Positions 37,350 to 59,860 of a stretch of DNA of 64,000 bases are shown in pieces. A program made the translations under genes and the position numbers. The first letter of the stretch is position 1. Each line of letters starts with the position of its first letter. The stretch is from Arenimonas caeni (GTDB lineage Bacteria; Pseudomonadota; Gammaproteobacteria; Xanthomonadales; Xanthomonadaceae), in NCBI RefSeq assembly GCF_003024235.1, contig NZ_KZ679084.1, forward strand, positions 248,001-312,000, given 5' to 3'. A model generated the notes under the pieces. That model ran no database searches. It was given only the letters and a program-made list of their open reading frames with translations, and was not told the origin of the DNA.

Positions 37350-40300
37350 TGACCGGCTCCATGCCCAGCATCTCGAACACGTTCCGCATCAGTTCGACCT
37401 CCTGGTAGGGCTTGCCCAGGTAGCGGTTGACGCCGATGTCGAAGGCGCGCTGGCGGTGCTTCTCGCCGGTACGCGAGGTGATCATGATGATCGGCACGTC
37501 CTTCATGCGCGCGTCCGAGCGCATGTTCTGCGCCAGCTCGTAGCCGTCCATGCGCGGCATCTCGATGTCGAGCAGCATCAGGTCGGGGATGCGCTCGGCC
37601 ATCTTCTCGATCGCGTCGACGCCGTCCTTCGCGGTCATCACCTCGAAGTTGTGGCGCTCGAGCACGCGGCCGGTGACCTTGCGCATGGTGATCGAGTCGT
37701 CGACCACCATCACCACCGGGATGCGCTGCGACTTGGCCGCGACGGTTGCCGCGGCGAGCGCGGCCGCCTCGGCGCCGTGGTCGACCGAGGCCTGGCGGCG
37801 CACCAGCGGCGCGACGTCGAGGATGACCACCACGCGGCCGTCACCCATGATGGTGGCGCCGAAGATGCCCGGGATCGAGTTGACCTGCGGACCCACCGGC
37901 TTGACCACGATTTCCTTGCTGCCCAGCACCTGGTCGATGCAGATGGCGGCGCGCAGGTCGCCCGAGCGGGCGAGCAGCAGCGGCATCTGCAGGCTGTCCT
38001 GGGCCTTGGCCGTGGCGTGGCCGATCAGGCGGCCCAGGTCGTGGATGGCGTAGGACTCGCCGGCGTAGGTGAAGATCGGGTTCCCGCTGGCCAGCTGCTT
38101 GTCGAGCTCGGTGCGGTCGATGCGGCCCACGCCCTGCACCGAGGCGATCGGCACCGCGAAGCTGGTGTCGCCGATCTTGACGAACACGGCCTGGGTGACC
38201 GCCAGGGTGAACGGCAGGCGGATGGTGAAGGTGCTGCCCTTGCCCGGCTCGGAGTCGATGGTGAGCGTGCCGCCGAGCTGGCGGATTTCGCTGTAGACCA
38301 CGTCCATGCCGACGCCGCGGCCGGCCAGGCGGCTCACCGAGGCGGCGGTGGAGAAGCCGGTCTCGAGGATGAAGCCGTACAGGGCCTGGTCGGACACTTC
38401 CGCGTCCGGCTTGAGCAGCCCGCGTTCGATGGCCTTCTTGCGGATGGCTTCCTTGTCGAGGCCGCGGCCGTCGTCGCTGATGCGCAGCACGACTTCCGAA
38501 CCTTCGCGCAGCAGCTGGATCCGGACCGTGCCCTCTTCCGGCTTCTTCGCCTGCTTGCGGTCGGCCGGGGTCTCCAGGCCGTGCGCGACGGCGTTGCGCA
38601 GCATGTGCTCGAGCGGCGCGGTCATGCGGTCGAGCACGTTGCGGTCCATTTCGCCGCTGGCGCCGTCGACCTTGAGGTTGACCTGCTTGCCGGTTTCGCT
38701 GCCCGACTGGCGCAGCACGCGGCGCAGGCGCGGCACCAGCGCGTCGAAGGGCACCATGCGCGTGCGCATGAGGCCTTCCTGCAGGTCCGAGCTGACGCGC
38801 GACTGCTGCAACAGCAGGGTTTCGTACTGGCGCACGAGGTCGTCGAGCGAGCCCTGCAGCGAGGTCAGGTCGGCCGCGGACTCGGCCAGCGAACGCGAGA
38901 GCTGCTGCTGGGTGGTGAAGCGGTCGAGCTCGAGCGGATCGAAGGTCTCCTCGCTGGTGTCGCCCTCGCGCTGGTAGCGCGCGATGATCTGCGCCTCGGT
39001 CTCGATGTCGAGCTTGCGCAGCTGCTCGCGCAGGCGCGTGGTGGTCTGGCCGAGTTCGCCGAGGTTGCTGCGGAACGCACCGAGCTGCTGCTCGAGGCGG
39101 GCGCGGTAGATGGCGACCTCGCCGGCGTAGTTGACGAGGCGGTCGAGCAGGTCGGCGCGGATGCGCACCTGCTCCTGCGGCGCGCGCACGCCGCCGGTTT
39201 CCTCTTCCTCGCCCAGGCCTTCGATCGGCGCCGACAGCGGGGCTAGCCCGCCGGCGGCGCCGCCGGTGGCGGCCTGGATGACGCGGGTGAAGGCAGCTTC
39301 CTGGGCCGCGGCGGCCTTGCGGTCGAGCGCGGTTTCCTTCGGAGCGGCCGGCGCGGCCTCGGTGGCGGCCTCGGCCGGCGCGACCCCGGCACCCTCGAGC
39401 GGCCGGCCCTTGGCCAGGGCGTCGATCTGGGCGATCAGGTTGGCCGGCAGCGCGATGGCCTTGCGCTCGCCGACGCGGGTGACCATGACGTGCAGGCGGT
39501 CGAACGCGCGCTCGAGCACGATGACGCCGGTCGGGTCGAGCTCGCGGCGGCCTTCGGCCACCACTTCCAGCAGCGACTCCATGGCGTGGCCGAGCTCGCC
39601 GACGGCGAAGATGCCGGCCATGCGGGCGCCGCCCTTGAGCGTGTGCAGGTCGCGCTGCAGGCCGACGACCAGCTCGCGGTCCTGGGTGTTTTCGCGCAGT
39701 GCGGCGAGCATGCCGTCGGAGTGGTCGAGCAGGTCCTCGGACTCATCGAGGAAGATATCGAGCAGGTCCTCATCGAGTTCGGAGGTGTCGAGCGCGGCGT
39801 CCGGATCCTCCGGATCGATGGCCAGCGGCACGCCCGCGCCGACGGTGTCCCCGGCGATGGCTTCCTCGGCGATGGCTTCCTCGGCGATGGCTTCCTCGGC
39901 GACGGTTTCCTCGGCGACGGTTTCCTCGACGACGGTTTCCTCGGCGACGGCTTCTTCGGCGACGGCTTCCTCGGCGGCCGGTGCTTCCTCGGCTACCTCG
40001 GCAGGGCCTTCGCTCGCGCCCGGGGCGGTGGCCGCCTCGAGTTCCTCGATCGACATGCCGTAGAACTCGTCGCGCGCCTCGCTGGCTGCCAGCTGGGCCG
40101 CTTCGGCCTCCGCAGCCTCCTCTGCCAGGCGGGCTTCCTCGGCCAGGCGGGCTTCCTCGGCGAGGCTGGCCTCCTCGGCCAGGCGAGCCTCCTCGGCCAG
40201 ACGAGCTTCCTCGGCCAGGCGAGCCTCCTCGGCCAGGCGAGCTTCCTCGGCCAGGCGAGCTTCCTCGGCCAGGCGAGCTTCCTCGGCCAGGCGAGCTTCC

Positions 40301-43300
40301 TCGGCCAGGCGGGCTTCCTCGGCCAGGCGGGCTTCCTCGGCGAGGCTGGCCTCCTCGGCCAGACGGGCTTCCTCGGCCAGACGAGCTTCCTCGGCCAGAC
40401 GAGCTTCCTCGGCCAGACGAGCTTCCTCGGCCAGACGGGCTTCTTCGGCCAGACGGGCTTCCTCAGCCAGACGGGCTTCCTCGGCCAGGCGAGCTTCCTC
40501 AGCCAGACGGGCTTCCTCGGCGAGGCGCTCGGCTTCGGCCAGGCGAGCTTCCTCAGCCAGACGGGCTTCCTCGGCGAGGCGCTCGGCTTCGGCCAGGCGC
40601 TCGGCTTCGGCGGCGGCAGCGGCGGCTTCGGCCTCGGCAGCCTCGCGTGCCGCCTGCTCGGCGGCCGCCTGGAGCGCCGCGTCGGCGGCGGCGATCTCGT
40701 CGGCGGACAGGCCCGGCTCGGGCTCGGCCTCGGTGATGGAGAACGCCGGGACGCCGGCTTCCGCCGAAGCATCGGCCAGGAAGGCCTCGAGCGAAATGCG
40801 CTCGGATTCGGGCGACTCGGCCGGCATTTCGACCTGCACCGACTCGGGGGCCTCCGCCGGCTCCGACGGCTCGTCGAAGACCGGCAGGTTCGTCAGGTCG
40901 AACTCGGGCAGCGTGACCGCGCTGGGCAGCTCGGTCGTGGTTTCCTCCGGCGCCATCGGCACCGAGGGCAGGCTGGCTTCCGGAAGCGCGTCGCGCAGCG
41001 CGGTGACTTCAGCCGCGAGCACGTCGTAGACCGGCAGCTGCGGCGACGGGTGCTCGAGCAGCCCGATCACCTCGCGGATGGCCGCGGCCACGTCGGAGAT
41101 GGCGCGCACGCCCTCGTGGCCCGGCTGCACCGAGGCCGCCAGCGAACGCTTGAGGAAACCCTCCAGCGGCGCGGTGACCGCGGTGAGCGTGGTCACCTCG
41201 GTCATGGCGAAGGCGCCATTCATGGTGTGCACGCTGCGCAGCAGCGGGTCGGTGACCGGCTGCGGGCCGCTGGCCGCGCAACCGGCGAGCCAGGCGTCCA
41301 CCGTTTCCAGGTGTCCGGCGACTTCGGGCTTGAGGATCTCGAACAGCACCGGATCGATGGCGAAACCCGAGGCGGCCGCGGCAGGCGCGGGCTCTTCGGC
41401 TTCGAACACCGGGCCACCGGCGAACTCCGGCTCGGGCGCCGGCGCCGGCTCGACTGCCGTCGCCTGCGGTTCGGCGGGCGCGACCGGGGCCGCGGCCTCG
41501 GCCGGGGCCGGCGGCGTGTAGAAGGCCTCATCGCCGGCCGCGACCCGCTCGGCCACGGCTTCGATGCCGGCCAGGTCGGCGTGCACGGTTTCGCCCTGCA
41601 GGGCGGCGCGCAGCAGCGGCAGCGTGTTGAAGGCGTTCTCGATCAGGGACACCACGGCCGGGCTGGCCTGGCGCGTGCCGTCGAGCACGCGGTTGAGCAT
41701 GGACTCGACCTTCCAGCTGAACTCGCCCAGGGTCTTGGCGCCGACCAGGCGGCCGCTGCCCTTGAGCGTATGGAAGACGCGGCGGATCGGCCGCAGCTGC
41801 TCCATGTTGTCCGGCTGCTTGCGCCAGTTCGGCAGCAGCTGTTCGAGGTTGCCGATTTCCTCCTGGAACTCCTCCAGGAAGACTTCGCGGATCTCGTCGT
41901 CGATCTCGTCGCTGCCGCCGTCGAAGCCGGCGATGGCGGGCAGGCCGGCGGCAGCCGGCGCCGCCGCTTCGGCGGGCGCGGCCTCGATGGCCACGGGGGC
42001 CTCGTCGGCAACAGGCGCCTCGACCGGGGCGAACGCGGCCAGGTCGGCCGCTTCGGGCTCCACGGCCGGCTCCGGCAGGGCCTCGGGTTCGGGCTCGAAC
42101 CCGGCCGGTAGCTCGAAGGAGATCTCCGCTTCGGGCTCGGGCTCGGCCTGGGCTTCGAGCACGGGCTCCGGTTCCGGCGCCGGCGGCTCGACCGCAAGCG
42201 GCGCGGCGGGCGCCGCGGCACCTGCCGCCGGCACGCTGGCGGCCGGCGGGGTCAGGTCCTCGGCCGGCAGCGGCCAGTAGCCGAGCGACTCGAGGTTCTG
42301 GCGGGCGATGGCCAGGATCTGCTCGCGCTTGGGACGGCGGTCGCGCACGGCCTCGAGGAAATATTCGAGGCCGGCCAGGGCATCGGCCAGGCGATCCATC
42401 TGCTGGCCGTTGGGCACGCGGCGGCGGCGCAGCAGCTCGTTCTCGGTGAAGCGGCGGACGGCGGTGAGGTATTCCGGGGCTTCCTGGATCTCGAGGATGC
42501 GCAGGGCGCCACCGACCTCTTCCAGCAGGCGCGGCACGTCGGCCAGCTGGGCGTGGTCCCAGTGGGTTTCGACGAAGGCGACGAAACACTGGCGGGCCTG
42601 GGCGAAGTTGGCGATGGCCTCCTTGACCAGCACCTCCAGCACCTGGCGCGCCTCGCTACCGGGCAGCAGGCGCTCGGTGGCGGCCTCGGCCACGGCATCG
42701 CCGCTGACGTCCGCGGCGTTGGCCTCGCCCAGGCGCGCGACCTGGTCGTCGAGCGACGCTTCGACGTAAAGCAGCGCGCCGGCGATGTCGAGCAGGGCCG
42801 ACTCGTCGGCCGGACGCTGGCCGCTGGAAATGGCATGGATCGCGGTGCGCTGGTCCTGGACCACGCGGCGGGGCACGCCCAGGCCCAGCATGCCGAGCGT
42901 GTCGGCGACGCGGTCGAGCGCCTCGGCCTGTTCGCCCAGGTCGGCGGCGGGCGCCTCCGGCGAACGCAGGTGCAGGTCGAGCGCGTCCTTGACGCGCAGC
43001 AGGTCTTCCTTGATGGCGCCGGCGACCGTGGACAGCAGCGCCTTGTTGCGGCCGCTGAGGCTGCCGCGGGCGTGCGCCAGCTCGGACTCGCTGGGCAGGT
43101 ACTGGCCGAGGCCGAAGACCTCGCGGATCTCGCCGATGCGGCCGCCTTCGGTGGGCGCATGGGCGACGAAATAAAGCAGCTGGCGGGTCAGCTCGAGCGG
43201 CGGATCGGTGCGGAAGGCGGCGTCGCCACCCTCGGACAGGCGCTTGATCTCCTGCTCGACCTTGGCCAGCGCCTGCTTGAGCGGCTTGCTGGCCTCGAAC

Positions 43301-56642: not shown

Positions 56643-57322
56643 GCCTGCTGCTGGTTCGCCATGGACAGGCGAGTTTCGGCGCCGCCGACTACGACCAGCT
56701 CTCCGACCGGGGCCTGGAGCAGTCGCGCCGGCTGGGCGACTGGCTGGCCGACGGCGGCCATCGCTTCGAGGCGGTGCTGGTGGGCGGCATGCGCCGGCAC
56801 CGGCAGACGGCCGAGGGCGTGCGGCGCGCGTTCGAGGAGCGCGGCCTGCCGCTGCCGGAGCTGCACGAAGACACCGGCTTCGCCGAGTTCGACCACGAGG
56901 CCGTGTTCGGCGCCTACCTGCGCGGGAACGCCGACCACCCGGTCGTCGTCGCCAGCCGCAGCGGCCGGCCGCAGGACATCGCCGCCATGCTGCAGGCCGC
57001 GCTGCTGGCCTGGGCCCGCGACGAACTGCCGGGCCTGCCGGAAAGCTGGTCGGCCTTCGGCGAGCGCGTGCACGCCGCCGGGGAGCGCCTGCAGGCGCTG
57101 GCCGGCAGCAGCGAGGCGCTCGTGCTCACCTCCGGCGGCGTGATCTCGCGCCTGGCGCAGATGGCGCTGGACGTGCCGGTCGAGCGCGCCGTCGAACTCA
57201 ACCTCTCGCTGCGCAACAGCGCGCTGAGCGAATTCCACCCGCATGCCGGGCGGCTGCGCCTGGGCAGCTGGAACGCCCTGCCGCACCTGCACGGGCAGCG
57301 GGAACTGTGGACCTACTACTGA
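56639..57322 (+). CDS. Histidine phosphatase family protein
   Basis: A 227-residue phosphoglycerate-mutase-like phosphatase. The catalytic RHG triad lies in [12 protein letters not shown] (Arg7, His8), and a second arginine in [12 protein letters not shown] (about residue 52). The later [10 protein letters not shown] occupies the place of the second catalytic histidine region with Ser-Gly-Gly instead of a clear His, so activity is uncertain. The GTG start overlaps the upstream stop. The acyl-CoA dehydrogenase gene starts 7 bp after it. Confidence 0.85.
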
Positions 57323-57329
57323 GGCGCGC

Positions 57330-58538
57330 ATGAGCCACGACGGCAGCCTGTTCCCGTTCTCCCCGCGCTCGCGCGAACTGCAGGCCCGCGTGGCCGCCTT
57401 CGTCCGGGAGCGCATCGTGCCGGCTGAGCCCGGGTTCGCCGCGCACGCCGCCGACCCGGCCACGCGCTGGTCGATCCCGCCGGTGCTCGAGGCGCTCAAG
57501 GCCGAAGCGAAGGCGCAGGGGCTGTGGAACCTTTTCCTGCCCGAATCGGCCGGCGGGCTGTCCAACCTCGACTACGCGCCCGTGGCCGAAGCCATGGGCC
57601 GCTCGCTGGTGGCGCCGGAAGTGTTCAACTGCAACGCACCCGACACCGGCAACATGGAAGTGCTGATGCACTTCGCCACGCCGCATCAGCAGGCGCCCTG
57701 GCTGCCGCGGCTGCTGGCCGGCGAGATCCGCTCGGGCTTCGCCATGACCGAGCCGGACGTGGCCAGCTCCGACGCCACCAACATCGCCATGCCCATCGTG
57801 CGCGAGGGCGACGAGTACGTGATCAACGGCCGCAAGTGGTGGACCACCGGCGCCGCCGACCCGCGCTGCGCGATCCTGATCGTGATGGGCGTGACCGAGC
57901 CCGACGCGCCGGCGCACCAGCGCCAGTCGATGGTGCTGGTGCCGATGGACACGCCGGGCGTGCGCATCGCGCGTCCGCTGACGGTGTTCGGCTACGACGA
58001 CGCGCCCTCGGGCCACGTCGAGCTGGCCTTCGAAAACGTGCGCGTGCCGGTGTCGAACCGGCTGGGCGAACCGGGCAGCGGATTCGCCATCGCCCAGGCC
58101 CGGCTGGGGCCGGGACGCATCCACCACTGCATGCGGCTGATCGGCCTGGCGCAGCGCGCGCTGGAGGCGATGGTCGAACGCGCCCGCACGCGCGTGGCCT
58201 TCGGCAGGCCGCTGGGCGGCCACGGCATGGCCCAGGAAGCGATCGCGCGCAGCCGCTGCGAGATCGAGCAGGCCCGGCTGCTGACCCTGCAGGCCGCGGC
58301 GGCGCTGGACGCCCGCGGCAACAAGGGCGCCAAGGACCTGATCGGCATGATCAAGATCGTGGCGCCCTCGATGGCCTGCCGCGTGATCGACCGCGCCATC
58401 CAGCTGCACGGCGGCGGCGGCCTGAGCCAGGACCACTTCCTCGCCCAGGCCTACGCCGGCGCCCGCAGCCTGCGCCTGGCCGACGGTCCCGACGAAGTCC
58501 ACCTCGCCGCCCTCGCCCGCTCCATGCTCAAGGCCTGA
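57330..58538 (+). CDS. Acyl-CoA dehydrogenase, ACAD10/11-like
   Basis: A 402-residue FAD acyl-CoA dehydrogenase. [16 protein letters not shown] (residues 137-152), the [10 protein letters not shown] segment (260-269) and the C-terminal [11 protein letters not shown] resemble the dehydrogenase half of animal ACAD10/ACAD11 and bacterial LvaC-type proteins rather than ordinary fatty-acid dehydrogenases. In those systems the enzyme acts on 4-phospho-acyl-CoA made by an APH-like kinase; such a kinase gene lies 158 bp downstream. The natural substrate here is inferred to be a 4-hydroxy fatty acid. Confidence 0.88.
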
Positions 58539-58580
58539 TTTCTTGCCGCGGATGCAGACGGATAAGTCGGAAGGAATATT

Positions 58581-58677
58581 TTGGCCACGGAAGAACACGG
58601 ATAAACACGGATAGGACAAAAGCAAATTTGAGTTCTATCCGCTCTTATCCGTGTCTATCCGTGTTCTTCCGTGGCAA
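58581..58677. repeat. AT-richer palindromic intergenic element, copy 1
   Basis: Two arms of about 35 bp, TTGGCCACGGAAGAACACGG... (58581-58616) and the near reverse complement ending at 58677 (...GTGTTCTTCCGTGGCAA), enclose a short loop. Base composition differs strongly from the GC-rich genes around it. The arms repeat the 10-mer pattern ACACGGATAA. A related copy lies on the other side of the kinase gene. Confidence 0.85.
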
Positions 58678-58696
58678 ATGATTCCAAGAGGCAACG

Positions 58697-59707
58697 ATGA
58701 TCCTTCCTGAAACCGAGTTGGCGGCGTACCTGGAGGCGAACCTGATGGGGTTCCGGGGACCGCTGGTGGCGACCAAGTTCAAGGGCGGGCAGTCGAACCC
58801 GACCTACCTGGTCGAGGCTGCGAGCGGGAAGTACGTGCTGCGGCGCAAGCCGCCGGGCAAGCTGCTGCCTTCGGCGCATGCGGTGGACCGCGAGTTCCGC
58901 GTGCTGCAGGCCCTGCACGGCGGCCCGGTGCCGGTGGCCAGGCCACTGCACCTGTGCAGCGACGAGTCGGTGATCGGCTCGATGTTCTACCTGATGGAAT
59001 TCGTCGATGGCCGGGTGCACTGGGACCCTTCCCTACCCGACCTGTCGCCCGCGCAGCGCGCGGCGCACTACGAGGCGATCATCGCCACGCTCGCCGCCCT
59101 GCATGCGCTCGACCCGGCCGCCATCGGCCTGGCCGACTACGGCAAGCCGGGCAACTATTTCGCCCGCCAGGTGCACCGCTGGACCGAGCAATACCGCGCC
59201 AGCGAAACCGAGGCGATCCCGGCGATGGAGGCGCTGATCGAACGCCTGCCGGCGCGCTGCCCCGCCGACGACGGCCGCGTGTCGCTCGTGCACGGCGACT
59301 TCCGCATCGACAACCTGATGTTCGCCCACGACCAGGCACGCGTGCTGGCGGTGGTGGACTGGGAGCTGAGCACGCTCGGCCACCCGCTGGCCGACCTGGG
59401 CTACTTCTGCATGGCCCTGCGCCTGCCGCGCAACCCGGCGCTGCCGGGCCTGGCCGGGCTGGACCGCGCTGCGCTGGGCATCCCGTCCGAAGACGCGCTG
59501 CTGGCCCGCTATAGCGAACTCAGCGGCCAGCCCGCGCCGGCCGACTGGTCGTTCGTACTTGCCTTCAGCTTCTTCCGCCTCGCCGCCATCGCCCAGGGCG
59601 TGGCCAAACGCGCCCGGCAGGGCAACGCCTCGAGCGAGCAGGCCGCCCAGGCCGGACAGATGACCGCCCTGCTCGCCGGCCTCGGCGCGTCGGCACTGGA
59701 GGGGTGA
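58697..59707 (+). CDS. APH-family phosphotransferase, ACAD10/LvaA-like 4-hydroxyacyl-CoA kinase candidate
   Basis: A 336-residue aminoglycoside-phosphotransferase-fold kinase. The Brenner motif HGDFRIDN (residues 199-206) holds catalytic Asp201 and Asn206; the metal Asp221 is in VVDWELSTLGHPLADLG. N-terminal FKGGQSNPTYLV (about 28-39) is the glycine loop. The sequence fits the subfamily fused to acyl-CoA dehydrogenase in ACAD10/11. Phosphorylation of a 4-hydroxyacyl-CoA is the likely reaction. Palindromic repeats abut both ends of the gene. Confidence 0.87.
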   Translation: MILPETELAAYLEANLMGFRGPLVATKFKGGQSNPTYLVEAASGKYVLRRKPPGKLLPSAHAVDREFRVLQALHGGPVPVARPLHLCSDESVIGSMFYLMEFVDGRVHWDPSLPDLSPAQRAAHYEAIIATLAALHALDPAAIGLADYGKPGNYFARQVHRWTEQYRASETEAIPAMEALIERLPARCPADDGRVSLVHGDFRIDNLMFAHDQARVLAVVDWELSTLGHPLADLGYFCMALRLPRNPALPGLAGLDRAALGIPSEDALLARYSELSGQPAPADWSFVLAFSFFRLAAIAQGVAKRARQGNASSEQAAQAGQMTALLAGLGASALEG

Positions 59708-59748
59708 TCTTTTGCCACGGGTTTGCGCGGATGAAGCGGAAAAGAGGG

Positions 59749-59857
59749 TTTTGCCACGGATGAACACAGATAGAGCAAGAGCAAATGTAAGTTTTATCCG
59801 CTCTTATCCGTGTTCATCCGTGTTCATCCGTGTTCATCCGTGTTCATCCGTGGCAAG
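59749..59857. repeat. AT-richer palindromic intergenic element, copy 2, with 10-bp tandem repeats
   Basis: Arms TTTTGCCACGGATGAACAC (from 59749) and the complementary CGTGTTCATCCGTGGCA side (ending near 59856). The segment AGCAAATGTAAGTTTTATCC near 59780 is shared in the same direction with copy 1 (58621 on). The right arm has expanded to four exact tandem copies of TGTTCATCCG (59811-59850). A partial unit, TTTTGCCACGG, also occurs at 59710-59720. Confidence 0.85.
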
Positions 59858-59860
59858 AAA

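Follow-up and report, generated by a model that had tools for sequence, protein, structure and literature searches.

Short extragenic palindromes present in many copies are known from several bacterial systems. In the REP, BIME and REPIN group, which is connected with GTAG tags and RAYT transposases, the unit is one hairpin of 20-40 bp, and the copies lie past stop codons in convergent and tandem gene pairs. The CGTC-tagged REPs have stems of 8-9 bp, loops of 4-5 nt, an unpaired CGTC tag and a CCA-type tail, and they occur in several phyla with no dedicated transposase, as far as described in the available part of PMC3733652. The heptamer TAACTGA is a short-unit intergenic repeat scattered among Beggiatoaceae, Cyanobacteria and Bacteroidetes by no evident transfer mechanism (PMC4679880, available part). 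Template switching between the arms of inverted repeats, accompanied by homogenisation of these arms, was treated in PMC8604942 and likewise in PMC8794818, as far as the available parts of these two papers go. Here, a palindromic repeat with regularly phased units is described and set against these systems.

The repeat was found in the window, i.e., the whole stretch of 64,000 nucleotides from Arenimonas caeni that was analysed, where two copies surround an APH-family kinase gene (58697..59707, plus strand; PF01636, E 4.4e-58). Copy 1 (58581..58678, without strand) is located in the tandem gap between an acyl-CoA dehydrogenase gene (57243..58538, plus strand, start codon uncertain) and the kinase gene, and copy 2 (59749..59857, without strand) in the convergent gap between the kinase gene and a periplasmic binding protein gene (PF01497; 59861..61006, minus strand, start codon uncertain), the stop codon of which is close to copy 2. 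The kinase reading frame is separated from copy 1 by about 18-19 nt and from copy 2 by about 41-42 nt. Copy 1 contains three phased units per arm, with the left arm (CCACGGAAGAACACGGATAAACACGGATAG) at 58585..58614 on the plus strand and the right arm, carrying the copy-specific GGAAGAAC variant of the left arm, at 58645..58676 on the minus strand; the palindrome is imperfect, its 36-nt arms being 92% complementary around a loop of 26 nt. The left arm of copy 2 is short compared with its right arm (59806..59852, minus strand), in which TRF found 4.7 units of ATCCGTGTTC at 100%. Judged from the sequence, a degenerate extra half-arm precedes both copy 1 (GCCGCGGATGCAGACGGATAAG, 58543..58566, plus strand) and copy 2 (GCCACGGGTTTGCGCGGATGAAGCGG, 59714..59740, plus strand). 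The first-pass annotation had placed two related palindromes in the same direction near the two ends of the kinase gene and four exact 10-bp units in the right arm of copy 2, and both the coordinates and the units proved right, the two copies having a common direct repeat of 78 nt with 86% identity. Its description of them as AT-rich is valid relative to the window (46% versus 72% GC).

The repeat unit, which recurs every 10 bp in the arms, is best given as CGGATNNNNN. Nine pairs of CGGAT exactly 10 bp apart were counted in the window, against a mean of 0.1 and a maximum of 1 in 30 simulations, and each of the spacings 6-9 and 11-19 bp occurred once at most. The predicted RNA folds of copies 1 and 2 have energies of -57.3 and -44.4 kcal/mol (z -11.1 and -8.3; none of 200 shuffles as good), and the DNA folds gave z values of -10.1 and -7.1, respectively. 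A known structured RNA family was considered and rejected, since the Rfam search of the window gave no match at the curated threshold and that of the collected loci only sub-threshold matches in seven of them. The arms can also be read as spurious open reading frames. Elsewhere in the window (39840-40599), units of 15 and 18 bp (CGACGGCTTCCTCGG and AGCTTCCTCGGCCAGGCG) form long tandem arrays of 9 and 27 copies.

The two copies belong to a dispersed, non-coding, hairpin-forming extragenic palindrome whose arms carry CGGAT with a 10-bp period. The genome itself holds 53 matches to a two-unit motif (at most two mismatches), which we grouped into 14 dispersed sites, and the reversed control gave none. 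Within the genus, (CGGATN5)x3 was detected in 12 of 27 genomes, with up to 123 matches in one genome and no control match in any of the 27. Full-length copies in the relative G026 reach about 165 bp and are built from a T-run, GACG, three CGGAT units, AGAGCAAAAGC and often an inner stem, followed by the mirror image. The arms are spelled in three classes, GCCACGGATGAACACGG, TTCAACACGGATAAGAGCGG and (A/G)ACGCGGAT, and the 5-nt spacers vary between the classes while CGGAT stays. Successive CGGAT motifs on the same strand, at distances up to 30 bp, are 10 bp apart in 156 of 190 cases in the genus set. In the cross-phylum set, 10 bp is also the value of 73 of the 97 inward offsets, whereas the outward ones are split between 9 bp (26 cases) and 10 bp (41 cases). 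The elements can be nested: in L204, L275 and L276, the loop of one element contains an element from a different class. REP-type palindromes or terminator-like hairpins stand beside or between the arms in L035, L194, L267 and L280, and by our reading four copies (L038, L200, L202, L211) start in the T-run that follows a terminator-like hairpin.

Comparisons of close relatives revealed presence and absence of the element at orthologous sites. Eleven comparisons were available between the genome studied (G000) and its nearest sister G021, namely copy 1 and 10 mapped of the 11 sites outside the window; the remaining one, at C1:508638, could not be located in G021. Four sites are empty in G021 (copy 1, L032, L033 at 129870, L038). 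At three further sites (L036, L037, L039) both genomes have an element, with arms that differ in sequence, and in L036 and L039 the arms enclose a terminator-like hairpin in both. At three others G021 has a GGGGTCAG-type palindrome (L035, L040, L033 at 135308), in one case plus a single arm, and one could not be aligned (L034). Between G026 and G023 (90%), 19 of 21 probes were mapped and sorted by our own reading: three elements are conserved (L265, L267, L208), two have a different arm class (L280, L202), three are reduced to a single arm or remnant (L268, L211, L272), one is replaced by a GTAGGAG repeat (L269), and 10 sites are without element. A palindrome of repeated GGAACTA units, possibly a second phased family, occupies a site of G023 (C4 near 16414, L287) where G026 has a CGGAT element. 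In Azospirillum, three of five probed sites were readable: L119 is empty and L064 absent in both sisters, the latter with a poorly conserved left flank, and the units of L059 are CACGGAT in A. doebereinerae versus CACAGAT in A. agricola. No clear target-site duplication was seen at the empty sites compared, where variation in the T/A runs makes the exact ends uncertain. As read from these alignments, sister species differ by insertion, by loss and, at some common sites, by arm class.

The same kind of element is multicopy in many phyla. A two-arm pattern applied to the contigs of GTDB genomes detected at least 116 stretches, of which the 80 that were named fall in Verrucomicrobia, alpha-, beta- and gammaproteobacteria, Acidobacteria, Chloroflexi, Bacteroidetes, Planctomycetes, Spirochaetia and Desulfococcaceae. 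From the organisms named there, 38 genomes of about ten phyla or classes were chosen, and every one of them contains several copies (3-307 matches, with none for the reversed control). Having been selected as carriers, they give no estimate of prevalence, and many of them are metagenome-assembled. The presence of isolates among the carriers (e.g., Geothrix fermentans, Azospirillum, Magnetospirillum aberrantis) argues against contamination as the source. In an even sample of 199 Pseudomonadota, units of this kind were detected only in the genome studied and in G238; a loose pattern matched 8 genomes and its reversed control 2, the other 6 looking like chance or other tandem repeats. The two-unit motif was detected in 15 of 100 relatives, and the distribution among close relatives is very patchy. 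The string CCACGGATGAACACGGATAAACACGGAT is present letter for letter in the genome studied, Geothrix fermentans, another acidobacterium, one betaproteobacterium and one gammaproteobacterium, and some 28-mers are identical between phyla. Non-coding stretches of 28 bases that are identical between an acidobacterial isolate and members of the gamma- and betaproteobacteria need horizontal spread or a common constraint, neither of which was described for this repeat in the open-access literature searched. Spread on plasmids, on phages or in E. coli was rejected as a candidate: copy 1 had no blastn match in these collections at E 0.01, although low-complexity masking may hide more, and another copy gave only weak partial plasmid matches at E<=10 (a 31-base Gloeothece piece and 20-base pieces in three Helicobacter plasmids). 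Six IMG/VR contigs match the two-arm pattern. In Candidatus Thiosymbion and similar genomes (L047, L050, L054, L100, L113, L141, L147, L148), the loops are very short and the elements are enclosed by longer conserved sequence (TCTTGTTGGGCAGGAATCGC ... GGTTCTTCGGTGCGGTTGGTCACGCCTCG), with which they form a larger repeat.

The recurrence of such repeats in unrelated bacteria and their mobile-like behaviour, both suspected in the first-pass annotation, are supported by the multicopy carriers, with some identical 28-mers, and by the turnover between sister species. Its gene-capture interpretation, i.e., loss or capture of the kinase gene by recombination between the repeats, is not supported: a protein search of the 27 genomes of the genus matched the kinase in 26, in a neighbourhood mostly without repeats, and the comparison of the locus in relatives found the gene at this site where no repeat is present. 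The gene order in the genus is often acyl-CoA dehydrogenase, kinase and periplasmic binding protein. Among 24 loci with a near full-length kinase, inspected by eye, CGGAT arrays are upstream of it in three (L163, L170, L171) and downstream in four (L163, L169, L172 and, as a remnant, L181). G021 is 93% identical in DNA at this locus (L164) and has an empty gap of about 10 nt in place of copy 1. The junction between the kinase and binding protein genes contains other palindromes in relatives: L169 has a CACTGAT/CACAGAT form, L172 a GCGGATCA form, and L176 and L179 have repeats of GTAGGAG type. The kinase is an unrelated ancestral neighbour, which the repeat did not bring. Palindromes of GTAGGAG or TGTGGGAGGGACTTCAGTCCC type occupy the same intergenic slots in other relatives (L173, L176, L179, L298), and such slots are shared hot spots for unrelated palindromes. 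In G022, G019 and one more relative (L170, L171, L240), a single left arm spans the start of the kinase, whose reading frame there may begin within the repeat (ATGAACACGGATAAGAGC..., M-N-T-D-K-S in L170).

The two arms of one copy match each other better than they match the arms of other copies. Out of 35 positions, the left arms of class D in G026 (n = 12) agree with their own right arms at 32.7 and with those of others at 31.8 (p 0.003), and the corresponding values for class C (n = 6) are 33.2 and 31.6 (p 0.011); when the classes are not separated, the excess is larger in G026 (n = 19) and is also seen in G000 (n = 10, p 0.005). In two orthologous elements with 78 positions, four positions changed in both arms and still match, six changed in a single arm, and three belong to neither group. 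Of the 39 transition mismatches between arms in tandem contexts, 20 are wobble pairs on the sense strand and 19 on the antisense strand, which gives no sign that selection acts on a single RNA strand and agrees with a process at the DNA level; selection on a sense-strand RNA stem was rejected on this ground. The within-copy matching without strand bias favours homogenisation of the arms at the DNA level. The same arm pattern would arise from compensatory selection on structure, and only 39 mismatches were available for the strand test. The element can serve as a natural readout of how the arms of inverted repeats stay matched in evolution.

Several explanations were weighed for these observations. 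That the two copies form a composite unit which captures or loses the kinase gene is extremely improbable: the gene is indeed flanked by two direct copies, but it is ancestral and syntenic without repeats in relatives, and no gene family recurs beside the elements in the 116 listed cross-phylum loci (529 ORFs within 3 kb, the largest family in 5 loci). A composite transposon with the kinase as cargo was rejected, since gene and repeats do not come and go jointly in the genus. It is also unlikely that the elements are selected RNAs, i.e., 3' untranslated hairpins acting in stability, attenuation or bidirectional 3' ends, with arms kept matched by selection on the RNA stem. The very stable folds speak for this explanation, as does the placement in the genus, where 48 elements, assigned from ORFs, lie between 22 convergent, 21 tandem, 1 divergent and 4 unclassified gene pairs at a median of 9 nt past the stop codon (n = 65); REPs are similarly placed according to the available part of PMC3733652. 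Against it are the lack of G-U bias in the mismatches, the lack of the element at most sites in relatives, and the cross-phylum set, in which the placement bias is weaker than in the genus and divergent sites are not clearly avoided (32 tandem, 20 convergent and 9 divergent among the 61 classified of 119 elements, 58 being unclassified, versus 150, 52 and 57 among 259 background pairs). Placement past stop codons would be expected of selfish DNA as well, after selection against harm. At L033 near 129947 (contig C3 of G000), the element of the genome studied occupies a place where the sister has an ATG start 3 nt past the preceding stop, and a GTG inside the right arm may serve as start of the downstream gene. 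Somewhat more doubtful is an array read by a conserved protein that binds CGGAT on one helix face, for example at supercoil barriers between genes, so that selection would recreate the motif across phyla. The prevailing 10-bp period in both sets and the persistence of CGGAT among differing spacers agree with it; however, the period is not strict in the outward offsets, one Azospirillum has CACAGAT units at an orthologous site, the patchiness in close relatives is unlike that of sites for conserved housekeeping proteins, and the spacers, which binding alone would not need, also match between arms.

Movement by Y1 transposases (RAYT/TIRYT, HUH), as for REPINs, is very unlikely. Within the genus, Y1 genes (PF01797) are commoner in carriers, at least one being present in all 12 and in 9 of 15 non-carriers, with none in the other 6, and insertion without target-site duplication is a property of IS200/IS605-type elements that agrees with the sites compared. 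Yet PF01797 was found in 29 of 39 carrier genomes and not in 10, among them Magnetospirillum aberrantis, Azospirillum doebereinerae, A. cavernae, A. agricola and Geothrix fermentans; the Azospirillum sites turn over where no Y1 gene was found; a CGGAT-type array flanks only 1 of 42 Y1 loci examined; and the GTAG tag is lacking. RAYT/TIRYT in cis or as a general requirement was therefore rejected, though the genus association points the opposite way, and no autonomous version with a gene between the arms was present in the 116 listed loci. We lean towards the explanation that the copies around the kinase gene, itself unrelated, are recent members of the dispersed element, spread by a mobiliser or copying process other than Y1/RAYT alone and then subject to arm homogenisation by template switching. 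A trans-acting mobiliser or copying process would place copies in 3' intergenic DNA, and the hairpin would let DNA polymerase template one arm from the other, whereby mutations or ectopic conversions of one arm would be copied into the other. This step from the arm pattern to template switching, which we infer, would explain why arms at the same site in sister species are spelled differently and yet matched internally. Several points speak against this preferred explanation. The search for a mobiliser gave none. In L280, L267 and L039, by our reading, the stretches between the native terminators and the two arms are unmirrored, which counts against a simple fold-back origin of the second arm, for which mirroring would be predicted. 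A process confined to the cell can hardly account for the near-identity between phyla. A bolder proposal, improbable at present, is a sequence parasite of DNA copying, i.e., a 10-bp-phased cross-phylum palindrome that has no transposase of its own and that would gain one arm ectopically beside a hairpin, such as a terminator, and the second by template switching. If the parasite proposal were true, each genome would overwrite the arms of common sites in a dialect of its own, in line with what is seen at L039/L214, L036/L222, L037/L220, L280/L284, L202/L291 and the Azospirillum site L059/L357, and spread by copying instead of transposition would be categorically new.

Compared with the known systems, the element resembles REP, BIME and REPIN sequences as a short, multicopy extragenic palindrome past stop codons of convergent or tandem genes, but its arms consist of phased 10-bp units and no GTAG-type unpaired tag was seen by eye at the ends of the listed copies. 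A RAYT gene flanked by the same repeat, by which REPINs are recognised, is not the rule here, as the PF01797 and Y1-locus counts indicate. The folds of the copies do not have the stem, loop, tag and tail of the CGTC REPs, which are likewise palindromic; the arms are 30-40 nt long and without unpaired tag, in contrast to what the available part of PMC3733652 describes. In the text of that paper, CGGAT and CACGG do not occur at word starts. As with MITEs, which are short, non-coding and dispersed, terminal inverted repeats and insertion polymorphism between relatives were found, whereas a parent transposon (116 listed loci) and a target-site duplication (empty sites compared) were not. Palindromes similar to the TIRYT terminal repeats (GGGGWSAS motif, available part of PMC3733652) lie at the same intergenic sites, and also in the loop of an element (L194) or beside an arm (L035), but differ in sequence, as these GGGG-type palindromes carry GGGGTCAG or GGGGACAG and the present element CGGAT units. 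Searches of open-access text, a scope that leaves subscription journals and figures outside, returned no paper on this repeat for the unit strings; six 13-base strings matched only two texts, one on fish physiology and one on an enzyme dataset, judged by title and abstract. The nearest analogue in distribution is the TAACTGA repeat, although that is a 7-bp direct repeat and the available text of PMC4679880 does not contain the string 'palindrom'. With the GTAG and CGTC REPs, as far as PMC3733652 is available, the element has placement in common while differing in build. The repeat thus belongs with the extragenic palindromes, a known kind, of which it is a new variant.
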